Source: Actinomycetota bacterium
Lineage (GTDB): Bacteria > Actinomycetota > Humimicrobiia > Humimicrobiales > Humimicrobiaceae
Assembly: GCA_013202875.1 (NCBI GenBank)
Contig: JABMRD010000104.1
Span: 1-44,344, forward strand
Length of the DNA: 44,344 nt
Reading direction: 5' to 3'
Each line of letters starts with the position of its first letter. Positions within the stretch are counted from its first letter, which is position 1. Positions 4,720-12,118 of this stretch are shown here, piece after piece. The notes under the pieces are model-generated. The model worked only from the letters and a program-made list of their open reading frames with translations. It made no database searches and had not been told where the DNA came from. A program made the translations under genes and the position numbers.

Positions 4720-5877
4720 TTATAACTTGTATCTTAACACAGCTCCAATACTTCCAGCTCTTATTAGTTTTTCATTCCCTTCTATATCCGCTATTTCACA
4801 TCCCTGGTTTAAAGCATCCTCAACAATCTCATCAACTATATCATTATAAAATACCGGCTTTCCTCCACAATACGGACACTTATCTTTATATTCTATAGTT
4901 AAGTAGCGGCATGAATCACAAATATAACCCTCATGTGTAAATTGTCTGTCATATATTAAAATCCTTATCTTCTCGATTAATAACGATTTTATGGTAGCAT
5001 CAATTCCAAGCACACCCATTCCATTTGGGTTATCTTCATCAATTAGCCTGTCGATCAGGTCATTTTTAGTTTTAGCCTCAAATTCATCAATAACTTTTTG
5101 AGCTTTATTTCTAATTAAAGAAATATTTGAATCCGGCTCAGCATCAATATTGCCAATATGTATTGACTGCAGGTAACTGTGCAGATAATTTAAAAAATCA
5201 GGAATTATTTTTTTTCTTCCTGCTAGAATCAGATAATCAAATTTTTCCCCTTTGAAAAGTTCCATTGTTCTGTCATTTACCAGTTTGAAGAAATGATGTA
5301 ACTTCTCTTCTAGCCTGCCATACAGTTTTCTTTCTCTCAAAACAGCTTGACTTTTAAAATTAACCTTTGAAGGGACATCACTTATAAAAGCTGCGAGATA
5401 CTCATTAATCTCACCAAGATATACAGAATAAATTTGCGCTTTTTCCCTGTCAATAAGCAGTACACCGTATTTTTTAGAATTATTAATAAGAGCCCTTATA
5501 TTCTGGGTATACGGCTTGGGATCGATAATTATTTTGGATCTCATTATTATGGGTATTCTAAATTCTTTCCACGGGCCATCTCCTGAAGAAAAAATTGCAA
5601 GTGTCTTTGTTGAATCAGCTCTGAACTTATCATTTACAAAAGCTTTCACTTTTTCAAAGACTTCAAATGCCTCCTTTTTATGGTTTTTATCAATATTAGT
5701 ATCAGCCTCCAGTTTCTCTTTACTGCTGACAATCATGGAATTCAATTTAGTCTGGTAATCTCTTTTCGTAATCCTGGACCTGTCTACCAAAAGATAAACA
5801 CTTACTACCGGTCTCCCTGTGGGAACGAAATTTAGTATTTCTTCCAGGCCCGAAACTTCATTGCTTGAATTTGCCAT
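4720..5877 (-). CDS. baeRF/Vms1-like protein (bacterial homologue of archaeo-eukaryotic release factor eRF1)
   Basis: FVPTGRPVVSVYL N-terminus, RERKLYGRLEEKLHHFF helix, CxxC..CPYCGG ribbon, C-terminal GSIGAVLRYKL; GAGAGGAG SD favours ATG at 5877 over 5898. Confidence 0.75.
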   Translation of the reverse strand: MANSSNEVSGLEEILNFVPTGRPVVSVYLLVDRSRITKRDYQTKLNSMIVSSKEKLEADTNIDKNHKKEAFEVFEKVKAFVNDKFRADSTKTLAIFSSGDGPWKEFRIPIIMRSKIIIDPKPYTQNIRALINNSKKYGVLLIDREKAQIYSVYLGEINEYLAAFISDVPSKVNFKSQAVLRERKLYGRLEEKLHHFFKLVNDRTMELFKGEKFDYLILAGRKKIIPDFLNYLHSYLQSIHIGNIDAEPDSNISLIRNKAQKVIDEFEAKTKNDLIDRLIDEDNPNGMGVLGIDATIKSLLIEKIRILIYDRQFTHEGYICDSCRYLTIEYKDKCPYCGGKPVFYNDIVDEIVEDALNQGCEIADIEGNEKLIRAGSIGAVLRYKL

Positions 5878-6030
5878 AAATAATACCGCTCCTCTCACTA
5901 CTGTATTAATATGATAAATACTGTGTTTATTATTCCAATGGACATTCTTGCTTTAAAAACTTTAATTTATAACTAAAATTTATTATTATTGTTATCATTA
6001 TACAATACCTATTCAAGAAAGAGAGTATTA

Positions 6031-6891
6031 ATGTTTGGATATATTGGATATAAAATCCTCGAATTTATTGCCATTTCAACTCCCTACCCTGTTATATACT
6101 TCATTGCAACATTTGGCGCCAGGCTATGGATGCTAACTGGCGTAGATGTTAAGACCATTAGAAATAATGTTTCAAAAGTACTCAACCTTAATATAAATAA
6201 TAAGGAAGTTCATAGAATAGCAAATAGGATTTTTATAAACTGGGCAAAAAATGTTGTTGACTTTTTAAAACACCCTATTATCTCAAAAGAGAAATTAAAA
6301 CAAAGGGTAGAAATAGAGGGTCTTGAGCATCTGGATAATGCATTAAAAAAAGGAAGGGGTGCAGTTATTATTTCAGCGCATATCGGGAACTTTGAATGGG
6401 CTGCCTGTAGAATAGCAGTAGAGGGATATAAGATATGGGTTATGAGCCTGGTTAGAAAAAATAAACTTGTGAGGAAATTTTTTGAGTCAAATAGACTTTC
6501 AAAAGGACTTAAAACTCTTTATATAAACAGGATGCTGAATGTTTTTAGAATGCTTAAGAACAATGAAATAGTGGCTATAGCAGCAGACTGGGCTCCTACA
6601 GGGCAAGCCACCAGGCCGTTTAAATTCTTTGGTAAAACAGCGTATCTGCCTACAGGTGCCCTCATGATAGCATTAAAATCTGGGGCACAATTAATACCAT
6701 GTTTTGTCTGTAAAAAGGATAAATATAACCATTTCCAAATAATCGAAAAACCCATTGATCTCATAAGAGAGGGGGATAAAGAAACATTGATTGCTAAAAA
6801 TATGGAAAAAGTGCTGGAGGTGATGGAAAAGTACATCAGGGTTAATATTTCCGAATGGGAAATGTTTCATAATATCTGGAGTGAAAAATAG
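6031..6891 (+). CDS. LpxL/HtrB-family lysophospholipid acyltransferase
   Basis: SAHIGNFEWA (HX4E), ADWAPTGQATRPFKFFGKTAYLPTGALMIALKSGAQLIPCF. Confidence 0.85.
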   Translation: MFGYIGYKILEFIAISTPYPVIYFIATFGARLWMLTGVDVKTIRNNVSKVLNLNINNKEVHRIANRIFINWAKNVVDFLKHPIISKEKLKQRVEIEGLEHLDNALKKGRGAVIISAHIGNFEWAACRIAVEGYKIWVMSLVRKNKLVRKFFESNRLSKGLKTLYINRMLNVFRMLKNNEIVAIAADWAPTGQATRPFKFFGKTAYLPTGALMIALKSGAQLIPCFVCKKDKYNHFQIIEKPIDLIREGDKETLIAKNMEKVLEVMEKYIRVNISEWEMFHNIWSEK

Positions 6892-8299: not shown

Positions 8300-8360
8300 A
8301 TGGCTGCCCCGGGTTGCGAAATTTCGAACCAATTTTTAAAAGAAATAATTAATTTAAAGA
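8300..8360. repeat. Dispersed direct repeat copy A
   Basis: ATGGCTGCCCCGGGTTGCGAAATTTCGAACCAATTTTTAAAAGAAATAATTAATTTAAAG, shared with copies B-E. Confidence 0.9.
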
Positions 8361-8586
8361 ATAATTTTTCTATACCTATAGATTTTTAATAGTCGTATCA
8401 TGTCCTCTAGTTGCAACTTATCAAAAATGAATTTTTGAAAAGTACAAAAAAATGGACACTAAAATACCTGTAGGCAGATTACAATCAGCAATTTACAAGT
8501 AGAACAGAATAAGGCAGCCTACTTCTTGGGGTGACTCATATAAAATACTATATCTTTTTCGGTATTTGCATTTATATAAATATCAA

Positions 8587-10095
8587 TTATTTCGCTGTGG
8601 TTTTTACAAGCTCTTCCTGAGACATTTCTGCTAACTTTTTGACCTTGTTCACATCAAGATCCAATCCCTTAGCAACGCGCGTGCCGTACTCGGGATCGGC
8701 CTTGTAGAAAATTGCTGACTGGCGCAGCTGTATTCGTTTTAGTGCATTACAGAGGTGTGTTGTGATATTCCCTATTAGATGGTCTCTATCTTCGTCAGTC
8801 ATCACTCGACGATAGAGTTCCCCGGCCTGAAAGAAATCATCGTTTGGATGAATATAAGGCTGTCTGGCAGCCTGACCTGATACCTCAAACGGTGGCTCAC
8901 CAGCATTCTGATTAGGTTCTGGACCACCAAAACTGTTGGGATAATAATTTGGTCCGTTGCCGCCGTTATCACCATAAGTCATGTAACCATCACGCTGGTA
9001 GTAATTAACAGCGTTCTTTGGACGGTTAATAGGTAATAAATGATAGTTGGGTCCCAGACGATGTAGGTGGGCATCATGGTAAGAAAATAGGCGACCTTGA
9101 AGTAACTTATCTGATGATGCTGCAATACCAGAGACAAAGTTTGCAGGGGAAAAGGCTGCCTGTTCAACTTCTGCAAAATAATTCTTCGGGTTACGGTTTA
9201 AAACCAATCGTCCGACAGTAAACGGCTTAACATCAGCATGAAACCAGACCTTGGTGACATCGAAGGGATCAAATCGGTACTTTTCAGCTTCCTTGGGAGT
9301 CATTATCTGCATTTCCAGCTTCCATGACGGATATTTACCGCCCTCGATGGCTTCAAACAGATCACGGGTAGCGTGATCGGGGTCTTTGCCCTTTATTTCA
9401 GTTGCTTCATCGCGGTTTAAGTTCTGGATACCTTGTTCCGTCTTAAAATGATATTTAACCCAAAAGTACTCTCCTTTTTCGTTATACCACTTGAATGTGT
9501 GACTGCTATAGCCATTCATGTGGCGAAAGTTCCTGGGTGTACCGCGGTCTGAGAACAGGATAGTGACCTGATGGAGTGACTCTGGTGTCAGGGATAGAAA
9601 GTCCCAGAACATACTGGTATCTTTAAGATTCGAGCCGGGGTGGCGTTTCTGAGTATGGATGAAGTCCGGAAACTTCAAAGGGTCTCGGATGAAAAAAACA
9701 GGGGTATTGTTTCCGGTCATATCGTAGTTGCCTTCTTCCGTATAAAACTTCAGAGCAAATCCACGTGGATCTCGCTCGGCATCAGCCGAGCCTCTCTCTC
9801 CTCCTACAGTGGAGAAACGGGCAAATACTTCTGTACGCTTGCCAATTTTAGAAAGGAATTTTGCTTTTGTGTATTTCGTTATGTCAGCTGTTACCTCAAA
9901 GTAACCGTGCGCTCCTGCGCCCTTAGCATGGACGACGCGCTCTGGAATACGCTCCCGGTCAAAGTGGCCTAATTTTTCCAGCAGATGTGTATCCTGCATG
10001 AGGATAGGGCCAGGATTGCCTGCTGTCTTAGAATTCTGATCATTATCAACCGGGGTACCAAAACCAGTAGTATAGATTTTCTTCTCTTCTGCCAT
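8587..10095 (-). CDS. katA: Monofunctional haem catalase
   Basis: [80 protein letters not shown]. Confidence 0.97.
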
Positions 10096-10298
10096 ATAGC
10101 ACCTCGTCTTAATCAATTTTTTATTTTTATTGTATTATATACATTATATAGAGTCTTATCAATTGTGTCCTAACCAGAACTTATAAGTTCCATTATTTTA
10201 AAAGTTTTGGGATAAATTTAAAATTATTTAAAGCTTATTAATTTTAGGAATTTATTTAAAAAATATTAAGAATAAAAGTATTAATACAGGTTTTTTGG

Positions 10299-10360
10299 GT
10301 GGCTGCCCCGAGTAGCGAAATTTCGAACCAATTTTTAAATGAATTGATCAATCTGAAAGA
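10299..10360. repeat. Dispersed direct repeat copy B; overlaps the 3' end of the DUF454 gene
   Basis: GTGGCTGCCCCGAGTAGCGAAATTTCGAACCAATTTTTAAATGAATTGATCAATCTGAAA. Confidence 0.9.
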
Positions 10361-10776
10361 CCTATTTTGCTTTTATCTAAAGGTTTTATTCTTATAATAT
10401 GAATTGTTACTCCAATTGCAATAATAACCAGCATAACTCTTACCCAAAATATATCTATAGCAAAAATAACCGAACATCCTATAGTTATCCATAAAAGGGC
10501 TATAGTAATGATTTTTAATTTTAATGGAATTCCTTTTCCCTCTCTATAATTTTTAATGTATCTCCCGAGAATTTTATTATTTACAAGCCAGTTATAAAAA
10601 CTCTTGGAGCTCTTTGCATAAAGTGCTGCTGAAATTAAAAGAAAAGGAGTGGTAGGAAGTACAGGTACGAATATTCCAACAATACCAAGTCCAATAAAAA
10701 AGGTTCCTGTAGCAATTAATAAAACCTTTATTGGTTTTCTTAAAAATTGCTCATTTTTATTTAAGTTATTACTCAT
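10348..10776 (-). CDS. DUF454 (YbaN-like) inner membrane protein
   Basis: GTFFIGLGIVGIFVPVLPTTPFLLISAALYAKSSKSFYNWLVNNKILGRYIKNYREGKGI. Confidence 0.9.
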   Translation of the reverse strand: MSNNLNKNEQFLRKPIKVLLIATGTFFIGLGIVGIFVPVLPTTPFLLISAALYAKSSKSFYNWLVNNKILGRYIKNYREGKGIPLKLKIITIALLWITIGCSVIFAIDIFWVRVMLVIIAIGVTIHIIRIKPLDKSKIGLSD

Positions 10777-10862
10777 ATTGGTGAGTGATCAGAAATACTA
10801 ATAATTTAATAAAGGATATCATTAGTTTCACATAAAGAAAATAAATCTATAAAATGGGTAAG

Positions 10863-10922
10863 TTGGCTGCCCCAAGTAGTGAAATTTCGAACCATATTAT
10901 AAAGGAATTAATTAATTTAAAG
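10863..10922. repeat. Dispersed direct repeat copy C
   Basis: TTGGCTGCCCCAAGTAGTGAAATTTCGAACCATATTATAAAGGAATTAATTAATTTAAAG. Confidence 0.88.
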
Positions 10923-10950
10923 GTTACTTTGAGTAATTAAAAAGTCTTGT

Positions 10951-11010
10951 ATGGCTGGCCCGGGTTGCGAAATTTCGAACCATTTTTTAAAGGAATTAAA
11001 CAGGATTAAA
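10951..11010. repeat. Dispersed direct repeat copy D
   Basis: ATGGCTGGCCCGGGTTGCGAAATTTCGAACCATTTTTTAAAGGAATTAAACAGGATTAAA. Confidence 0.88.
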
Positions 11011-11082
11011 GAGTTATTTACATTAAAAATATAAATAATGGTTATCTTTCAATATAACGACCTTTTAAGTAAGAGTTAATTT

Positions 11083-11580
11083 TCAGATTTTTGCAAAAAG
11101 AATCATATAGTGATGTCCATATTTCTTCTCGCATTTCGGACAATATGCATAATGAATGTAATACTCATCATTTTTGGGAACTTTCTCCCCTTTTTTTTCT
11201 AAATAGATATTCATATCCTTTACAAATTCGGGAATTGCATTATATGGACCGTCGTACACTTTAGCCATGAATTCGCCAGGAATTTTAACATTGTTCGCTC
11301 CGGGAACATTCCCAGCTACGGAAATGTAAATGTTTGATTTAAATGCACTCGGGTCTTGAAATAAAACTAAAACTTCATCTTTTTTTGAATCTATCTTATT
11401 TGAACTTGTTGCAAGGCCCATCATCTTAGTTATCTTTTTCCCAATCATTGGTGGAAAAGGCATATGGAATAGGGTGGGAATAGTTTCTTTGATAAATTGT
11501 TTGTTGTCCCAGTTGAATGTTTTTTTATCCCATTTTTCAGGATTAAATTCGGGGCAACATTCATTGTTTTTATTGTCCAT
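11083..11580 (-). CDS. Conserved protein, possibly GyrI-like small-molecule-binding family
   Basis: CCPEFNPEKWDKKTFNWDNKQFIKETIPTLFHMPFPPMIGKKI; C-terminal YCPKCEKKYGHHYMILFAKI; family assignment tentative. Confidence 0.6.
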   Translation of the reverse strand: MDNKNNECCPEFNPEKWDKKTFNWDNKQFIKETIPTLFHMPFPPMIGKKITKMMGLATSSNKIDSKKDEVLVLFQDPSAFKSNIYISVAGNVPGANNVKIPGEFMAKVYDGPYNAIPEFVKDMNIYLEKKGEKVPKNDEYYIHYAYCPKCEKKYGHHYMILFAKI

Positions 11581-11621
11581 ATTATTACTTTACCAAATTT
11601 TAAGGAATCCGTATAGTAGTG

Positions 11622-11687
11622 CTGCTCCTGGCCCGGGTTGCGAAATTTCGAACCAATTTTTAAAAGAAATAATCAATTTAAAAAAGA
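11622..11687. repeat. Dispersed direct repeat copy E
   Basis: GCTCCTGGCCCGGGTTGCGAAATTTCGAACCAATTTTTAAAAGAAATAATCAATTTAAAA. Confidence 0.88.
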
Positions 11688-11728
11688 TTGATATTGGTAA
11701 AAGTTTATTTAGAGCGGTTATGGTATAA

Positions 11729-12118
11729 CTATTTGTCGTTAAGGTAATAATCTAAAACATTCATTGCAAATCTTGCTGATGCGGTCCCTGGACCTCCAGT
11801 CATTTCTATACCGACTTCTATGGCTTCGAGTATTTCATCTTCTTTGGCACCATCATTAATAGCTTGTTTAATGTGCCATTCCATACAAGATTCACAATTT
11901 ATAACTATTGAAATCCCTATAGCAATCAGTTCCTTTTGTTTCTTAGATAATTTCCCATCTGAATAAGTATTTTTTTCCATCTCAACAAAAGATCGATATA
12001 CTTTTGACTTTTTTGAAAAATATGAATGAGATTTATTCCTATTTTCTATGATTTGTTTTATTTTTTCTTTTTCTAGATTATCCATCTTCGAGATTCTCCA
12101 TTTTACTTTGTTGAACAT
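11729..12118 (-). CDS. Carboxymuconolactone decarboxylase / AhpD-like family protein
   Basis: CESCMEWHIKQAINDGAKEDEILEAIEVGIEMTGGPGTASARFAMNVL; start may be the internal Met at 12085. Confidence 0.88.
   Translation of the reverse strand: MFNKVKWRISKMDNLEKEKIKQIIENRNKSHSYFSKKSKVYRSFVEMEKNTYSDGKLSKKQKELIAIGISIVINCESCMEWHIKQAINDGAKEDEILEAIEVGIEMTGGPGTASARFAMNVLDYYLNDK

Follow-up and report, generated by a model that had tools for sequence, protein, structure and literature searches.

The short repeats in the window, that is, the whole 44,344-nucleotide stretch of DNA under analysis, which represents one contig of a 1.9-Mb draft genome, delimit mobile cassettes arranged in tandem, and the tails of these repeats are constrained at the level of codons. 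The most satisfactory explanation, and one that we consider probable, is that the repeats are the attachment sites of tandem cassettes residing at tRNA ends and that the mini-ORF read from them is the C-terminal tail of a serine recombinase. The initial annotation had described the repeat as a codon-wise conserved mini-ORF. The codon conservation stands for the right half of the repeat, but an independent gene does not, as no initiation signal accompanies it; the cassette borders at tRNA genes and the likely parent, a large serine recombinase, had been missed.

Five copies of the repeat, referred to as A through E, are located on the forward strand of the window, precisely where they had been placed initially. 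Copy A (8300-8389) translates as MAAPGCEISNQFLKEIINLKNNFSIPIDF followed by a stop. Its 31-bp attachment-site core (8301-8331) is formed by the left arm TGGCTGCCCC, the 7-bp spacer GGGTTGC, and the right arm GAAATTTCGAACCA, and the codon-conserved tail (8332-8389) terminates in TAA. On the left side of copy A, 49 nt are identical to a junction in genome G006 that bears another right cassette. Cassette A-B extends from 8317 to 10309 with a catalase gene on the reverse strand (8587-10116) as its cargo. Copy B (10299-10397) contains a core at 10300-10330 with the spacer GAGTAGC, and its tail (10331-10397, to the stop) overlaps at its end the 3' end of a DUF454 gene. This gene (10348-10776, reverse strand) is the cargo of cassette B-C (10316-10873), which shares 93% identity over 511 nt with a cassette of G013, a genome of another genus, where the left neighbor differs. 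The core of copy C (given initially as 10854-10940) is positioned at 10864-10894 with the spacer AAGTAGT, and its tail runs from 10895 to the stop at 10940. Note that the ATG assigned to this copy sits three codons ahead of the repeat's TTG. Cassette C-D (10880-10961) is an 81-bp unit without a gene that matches the related MAG record L128 over its full length with 85% identity. In copy D (10951-11034) the core at 10952-10982 again contains the spacer GGGTTGC, and the tail to the stop occupies 10983-11034. Cassette D-E (10968-11634), with a Bact_hydrolase gene (11083-11580, reverse strand), is 91% identical over 660 nt to L135, another related MAG record. Copy E (∼11625-11728) lacks an NTG. 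Its core (11625-11655) has a degenerate left edge, CTCCTGGCCC, and the frame of its tail (11656-11728) remains open up to the stop at 11726-11728. The last recognizable cargo, a carboxymuconolactone decarboxylase-family gene (11729-12118, reverse strand), lies to the right of copy E. There is no tRNA in the window and no recombinase near its array. The methyltransferase gene to the left of copy A was considered as a fixed integration locus and rejected, given that it is nearly absent from relatives. Elsewhere in the window (4720-5898, 5989-6891), a release-factor-like gene of baeRF family 10 (bacterial archaeo-eukaryotic type) is found beside a lipid A acyltransferase-type gene (PF03279).

The arrangement observed in the window recurs among its relatives. 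In all, 180 copies were located on 110 contigs, 40 of which contain more than one copy. On every one of these 40 contigs the copies share a single orientation, and the 70 adjacent pairs display a median spacing of 1.09 kb. Most cassettes carry zero to two genes, the orientation of which is mixed. Of particular relevance are the neighbors: none of the 25 copy pairs with common DNA on the right (the tail and the gene) is also homologous on the left, and none of the 14 pairs with homologous left sides is homologous on the right. In the alignments inspected the change of neighbors maps to columns 10-17, and the 7-bp spacer corresponds to columns 10-16. The copies thus display site-specific cassette shuffling, and because the right neighbor is kept while the left one changes, the tail is carried along as the leftmost part of its cassette.

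A column profile of 104 copies reveals a sharp left edge (TGG), the left arm TGGCTGCCCC, a variable 7-bp spacer of the form RRGKNNY, and a nearly invariant GAAATTTCGAACCA, followed by ∼40 AT-rich nucleotides with a three-base periodicity. T-tracts in the tail are ∼9 nt apart. The left 31 nt, formed by TGGCTGCCCC, the spacer, and GAAATTTCGAACCA, are devoid of a codon signal, and the conservation initially ascribed to the whole repeat accordingly does not include them; they are conserved as DNA and constitute a DNA site. The first codon (ATG, GTG, or TTG) had been read as a start. The first base of the NTG (base -1), however, is A in 20, C in 25, G in 18, and T in 41 of the 104 copies, such that C is as common as A. 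Sequences resembling a Shine-Dalgarno element occur in 1 of 123 copies, which is not above background and agrees with the initial remark that no strong element precedes the copies. Likewise, neither a conserved start codon nor a frame signal is found upstream of the copies. The NTG is a site boundary rather than a start codon. Given that there is no initiation signal, that only the right half displays a codon signal, and that the left half serves as a recombination site, the repeat does not harbor an independent small gene. The suggestion that a longer parent protein might be found led nowhere in Pfam, NCBIfam, PDB, or plasmids, none of which contains a match to the tail peptide. A tRNA origin of the tail itself was also rejected since, read by eye, it bears no likeness to the 5' part of a tRNA.

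The arrays of the relatives are linked to tRNA genes. Copies lie upstream of, and antisense to, these genes, the 3' ends of which match the left edge of the site: TGGCTG corresponds to the antisense 3' end of tRNA-Gln, TGGTAG to that of tRNA-Glu, and others follow suit. Twenty-six of the 35 tRNAs on copy-bearing loci are situated to the right of the array in the antisense direction (Gln 10, Glu 5, Leu 4, Arg 3, and others). The nearest of these right-side tRNAs are 385-1984 nt from the copies, with many within 2 kb. All five arrays with a right-hand tRNA-Glu possess left arms of the GGTAG type, and those with tRNA-Gln mostly have GGCTG. In addition, several copies have left flanks whose translation reads LGREDSN or GEGGLEP, peptides characteristic of a tRNA 3' end in antisense. 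In some cases a second, plainly tRNA-Gln-like attachment site is found ∼50-80 nt upstream of a copy, resulting in tandem double sites (L062:340-428, L176:11854-11940, L058:4340-4428, L064, L172, L078, and L158); the first site of such a pair in L176 contains the end of a recombinase gene.

The codon constraint was evaluated with 176 distinct copies from ∼35 genomes of the family, and the null model consisted of shuffled alignment columns in which composition and the relatedness of rows were kept. In frame 0, the frame named initially, columns 32-68 yield a mean pairwise BLOSUM score of 0.32 versus -1.33 after shuffling (z 3.6, p 0.0002), a signal reached by 0 of 5000 column shuffles, and they contain 35 stops where 246 are expected. 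The other five frames fail the same test. In a smaller set of 125 copies the coding signal (p 0.0005) is again limited to the reported frame and the right stretch. The pattern is also present in each left-arm class separately. The information at codon positions 1, 2, and 3 of the 176 copies is 0.78, 1.16, and 0.59, respectively. Columns 44-46 tolerate only leucine or isoleucine (TTA, TTG, CTA, CTG, ATA, ATT, and ATC). Although their component bases are common, ATG and TTT/TTC are nearly absent: ATG is seen 2 times versus 8.0 expected, and TTY 3 times versus 13.7 expected (Fisher p 1.7e-6). Because this coupling occurs within a codon, base composition cannot be its source. For intact tails the pooled NG86 dN/dS, a measure proposed initially for a larger set of copies, is 0.41. 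Pairs of copies from the same cassette, which are few and partly non-independent, differ at codon positions 1, 2, and 3 by 53, 22, and 65 substitutions, respectively, matching the pattern of 13, 3, and 17 obtained originally by hand, and their pN/pS is 0.59 as compared with 0.66 between lineages. These same-lineage comparisons of sequence favor ongoing selection. The initial reading, in which the pattern reflects peptide-level selection or a coding ancestry and not free drift, is thus borne out by the codon tests.

Recombinase genes do read through the sites. The large serine recombinases of the family contain Resolvase, Recombinase, and zinc-ribbon domains, as was confirmed. Their ORFs end inside the attachment cores of tRNA-Asn (L301) and tRNA-Gln (L306) and inside tRNA-type sites in L313, L305, L338, and L333, and with relics included, recombinase genes are encountered at tRNA-type sites in L301, L306, L313, L305, L333, L338, L176, and L071. 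The ends encoded there include CSNWLPE, RSNWLGRKDSNL, and QSIM-AWGERIRTTNKLLLNELI, each followed by a stop, and SKSNL-APRLGLEP. Relics of the C-terminus end exactly at the copies L058:1410, L060:1850, and L256:3075, and another ends at the tRNA-Gln of L071. Genes of the L305/L313 family read into the left arm in frame 0, the frame of the mini-ORF, as (M/L)-(A/V) in 7 of 7 readable cases, and the L313 gene terminates in RTTNKLLLNELI and a stop, which is similar in character to NQFLKELI. Such frame-0 recombinases are rare. The L301/L306 family, on the other hand, enters copies in frame 1 and meets a stop at columns 36-38 (WLPQVAKFRTNF and a stop). Among ∼180 copies in 47 genomes, no intact recombinase ORF was observed to run into the tail, the open frames there being 20-122 aa in length. 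The sole in-frame fusion with protein-like sequence, located in L061, is 53 codons long (...KISPIQEQNDLINDSESIM-AAPSSEISN...) and has no significant recombinase match. As a separate observation, in L333 (G020:C174) the C-terminus of a serine recombinase is read almost wholly from an antisense tRNA (LSGLEPETSSLSGMRSNLLSYRPL); peptides of this kind are often taken for spurious ORFs, and here the peptide is apparently a real gene end.

A recombinase of another class is also found near the copies. In G048, 24 nt separate the stop of a gene encoding an Xer-like tyrosine recombinase (P0001) from the first copy of the array that follows, and another copy is preceded, at a distance of 57 nt, by the stop of a C-terminal fragment of this gene. 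The P0001 loci are L141/L229:6063-6935 (reverse strand) and L063:3287-4162 (forward strand), with extra copies or fragments in G048; its homologue in the genome of the window (C163) is broken by a stop codon.

According to the mechanism proposed here, each repeat is the predicted site at which small mobile cassettes attach and build up in tandem, mostly at tRNA 3' ends. Exchange between neighbors maps to the 7-bp spacer (columns 10-16), and the DNA from about column 17 rightwards, including the tail, travels with the right-hand cassette. The mover is presumably a large serine recombinase, the gene of which would overlap the attachment site such that its frame runs through the left arm into the site, as is the case for several of the genes observed. 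When positioned next to a cassette-type right arm, the recombinase would acquire from that arm its last ∼20 codons, AAPxxEISNQFLKELINLKDLFSN and a stop, which would form an amphipathic helix. With the last codons of the recombinase supplied in this manner, the mini-ORF would represent an exchangeable C-terminal end of its gene, specifically that of the frame-0 recombinase in its attP or cassette-fused state. The tail would be translated only with a recombinase gene immediately to its left and would be silent at most positions of an array, and purifying selection would operate whenever a cassette occupies, or is mobilized to, a recombinase-adjacent position. Such position-dependent selection could explain why a codon pattern exists without a start codon, why it persists within cassette lineages, and why some copies have decayed. 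Given that no intact recombinase-plus-tail gene was found, both the assignment of the tail to the frame-0 recombinase and the conditions of its translation are inferred. Also against the serine recombinase model are the second recombinase family, which employs frame 1, the rarity of frame-0 recombinases, the array of the window itself, which has neither a recombinase nor a tRNA close by, and the tyrosine recombinase that abuts one array. We raise as a tentative possibility, and a doubtful one, that integration swaps the tail: the free element would carry the helix of its own arm, whereas the integrated form would end in codons supplied by the antisense tRNA 3' end or by the arm of the resident cassette. 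If so, cassettes with intact tails would re-arm a recombinase landing beside them and would be preferentially mobilized, and the exchange would provide an inbuilt switch or compatibility code, with selection operating on the attachment site itself.

One rival explanation retains the cassette arrays and assigns the tail differently. The tail could be the C-terminal end of another gene, for instance one that encodes a tyrosine integrase or an HTH protein, or a host gene that serves as the attachment target, and the proximity of P0001 and its fragment to the copies and the fused ORF in L061, with its weak HTH match (E 0.11), point in this direction. P0001, however, terminates at a stop of its own ahead of the site and is in another frame, and it was rejected as the parent on these grounds. 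No long ORF of any kind enters a copy in the 47 genomes, for which reason a long host ORF ending in the tail was rejected, and neither ORF136 of L057 nor the HTH-like ORF of L061 is supported by Pfam or PHROGs. The serine recombinase is the only gene repeatedly seen to read through the site, and another parent therefore appears unlikely. A further proposal is that the tail is a relic, which would owe all of its codon structure to a parental coding segment in an ancestral mobile element and would be translated nowhere at present. The lack of start codons and of a parent gene would be expected of a relic, as would the copies that have decayed through stops or frameshifts, even inside one cassette lineage; these same copies fit the occasional use of the tail. 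Second codon positions, however, are spared within lineages as well as between them. As the same-cassette pairs are few and partly non-independent, this observation only weakens the relic model, which we judge to be distinctly improbable.

A free-standing micro-protein of ∼24-30 aa, for example a type I toxin or a signaling peptide produced from each copy, might be suspected from a frame that is open in about 87-89% of the copies, from the amphipathic helix pattern, and from stops that cluster after codons 22-25. With C enriched at the supposed start, no Shine-Dalgarno element or upstream frame signal, a left flank that changes at every cassette exchange, and no match in Pfam or NCBIfam, this explanation is very improbable. 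Finally, the core is clearly a DNA site and the tail, with its regularly spaced T-tracts, is AT-rich, such that a curved recombination-site arm, or some other DNA or RNA structure, might mimic a coding pattern by chance. The coupling within codons and the choice between purines and pyrimidines follow the genetic code, though, and only one of the six frames shows the effect; we assign this idea next to no weight. A small RNA or riboswitch was rejected for want of an Rfam match.

Related arrangements are known. The ssrA islands of Dehalococcoides are likewise tandem units of one orientation, lying downstream of an RNA gene and bounded by repeats of its 3' end (McMurdie et al. 2011, PMC3146451). 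According to the accessible portions of that report, many islands have no recombinase and some encode a Ccr-like large serine recombinase by the attachment site, insertion maps to the T-loop, and there is a conserved 15-bp motif. The likeness to the present arrays extends to the unit orientation, the RNA gene 3' end, and the proposed recombinase class. There, however, the target is a single-copy tmRNA and the islands are larger (vcrABC, ∼12 kb), whereas here several tRNAs are involved and most units contain zero to two genes; the same portions mention no coding constraint such as that of the tail beside the present repeat. The additive flexible genomic islands of the Methylophilaceae contain recurring 20-bp repeats of a tRNA-Lys 3' end, and these islands and the tycheposons resemble the present arrays in having cargo units parted by short direct repeats of tRNA 3' ends (PMC10872708). 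Unlike the case here, only the 20-bp repeat is present and no coding arm is described, and the tycheposons of that report employ the tyrosine recombinase xerD (PMC10872708). Integrons also come to mind, with their many small cassettes, each with one direct site, held in one orientation and exchanged at the site. The sites here, in contrast, are related to tRNA 3' ends, and the orientation of the cargo genes is mixed. The integrase IntI (TIGR02249) scored above the cutoff in 2 of 41 genomes, neither in the host family, and the attC boxes RYYYAAC and GTTRRRY were absent from both ends of the 104-copy consensus; an integron was rejected on both counts.

Attachment sites within coding genes have precedents. 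In archaeal suicidal integrases of the SSV type, the site lies within the recombinase gene, which is altered upon integration (reviewed in PMC8371274). These are tyrosine enzymes that are split into two inactive parts and are reported only in archaea (PMC8371274), whereas the serine enzyme considered here would keep its catalytic part and change only at its C-terminal end. In mycobacteriophage BPs, as described in the accessible part of PMC4557955, attP is inside a coding gene and integration changes the C-terminus of the product; the gene is that of the phage repressor, and the element is single and does not form arrays. A search of the accessible literature revealed no serine recombinase with an attachment-exchanged tail on point, a result that does not prove absence.

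Bacteria are known to store accessory genes in tandem cassette arrays at tRNA genes, and the attachment arms of such arrays are usually taken to be plain DNA. An arm under protein-level selection would tie the evolution of the recombinase to every cassette in the array, and it makes testable the notion that a recombinase borrows its C-terminus from its landing place. It also calls for caution, in that a conserved mini-ORF within an intergenic repeat can turn out to be part of a gene that overlaps an attachment site rather than a new small protein.

The genome of the window harbors about 27-35 copies, the number varying with the search. By profile search, copies are present in 39 of 61 genomes, with strong matches confined to the same family, and the named records bearing the core are Actinomycetota MAGs, including Candidatus Hydromicrobium americanum. 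A phage origin was rejected, as IMG/VR contains neither the core (exact core pattern) nor the tail (peptide search). Two copies (L125:837-891 and 1691-1744) are located on a contig filed under Pelolinea sp. (Chloroflexota), where one cassette shares 98% identity over 505 nt with a cassette of L038, from a related genome; it reflects either transfer across phyla or a mis-binned contig. The repeat serves as a marker for the mobile gene pool (catalase, DUF454, hydrolase, and other cargo) of an uncultivated actinobacterial lineage, the relatives of Ca. Hydromicrobium. Recurrent among the cargo in several genomes are pairs of small genes (93/102 aa and 86/93 aa) that are toxin-antitoxin-like, as in L057:8529-9131, L095:2299-2880, L164:736-1368, L068:17481-17955, L093:1663-2137, L066, and L094.
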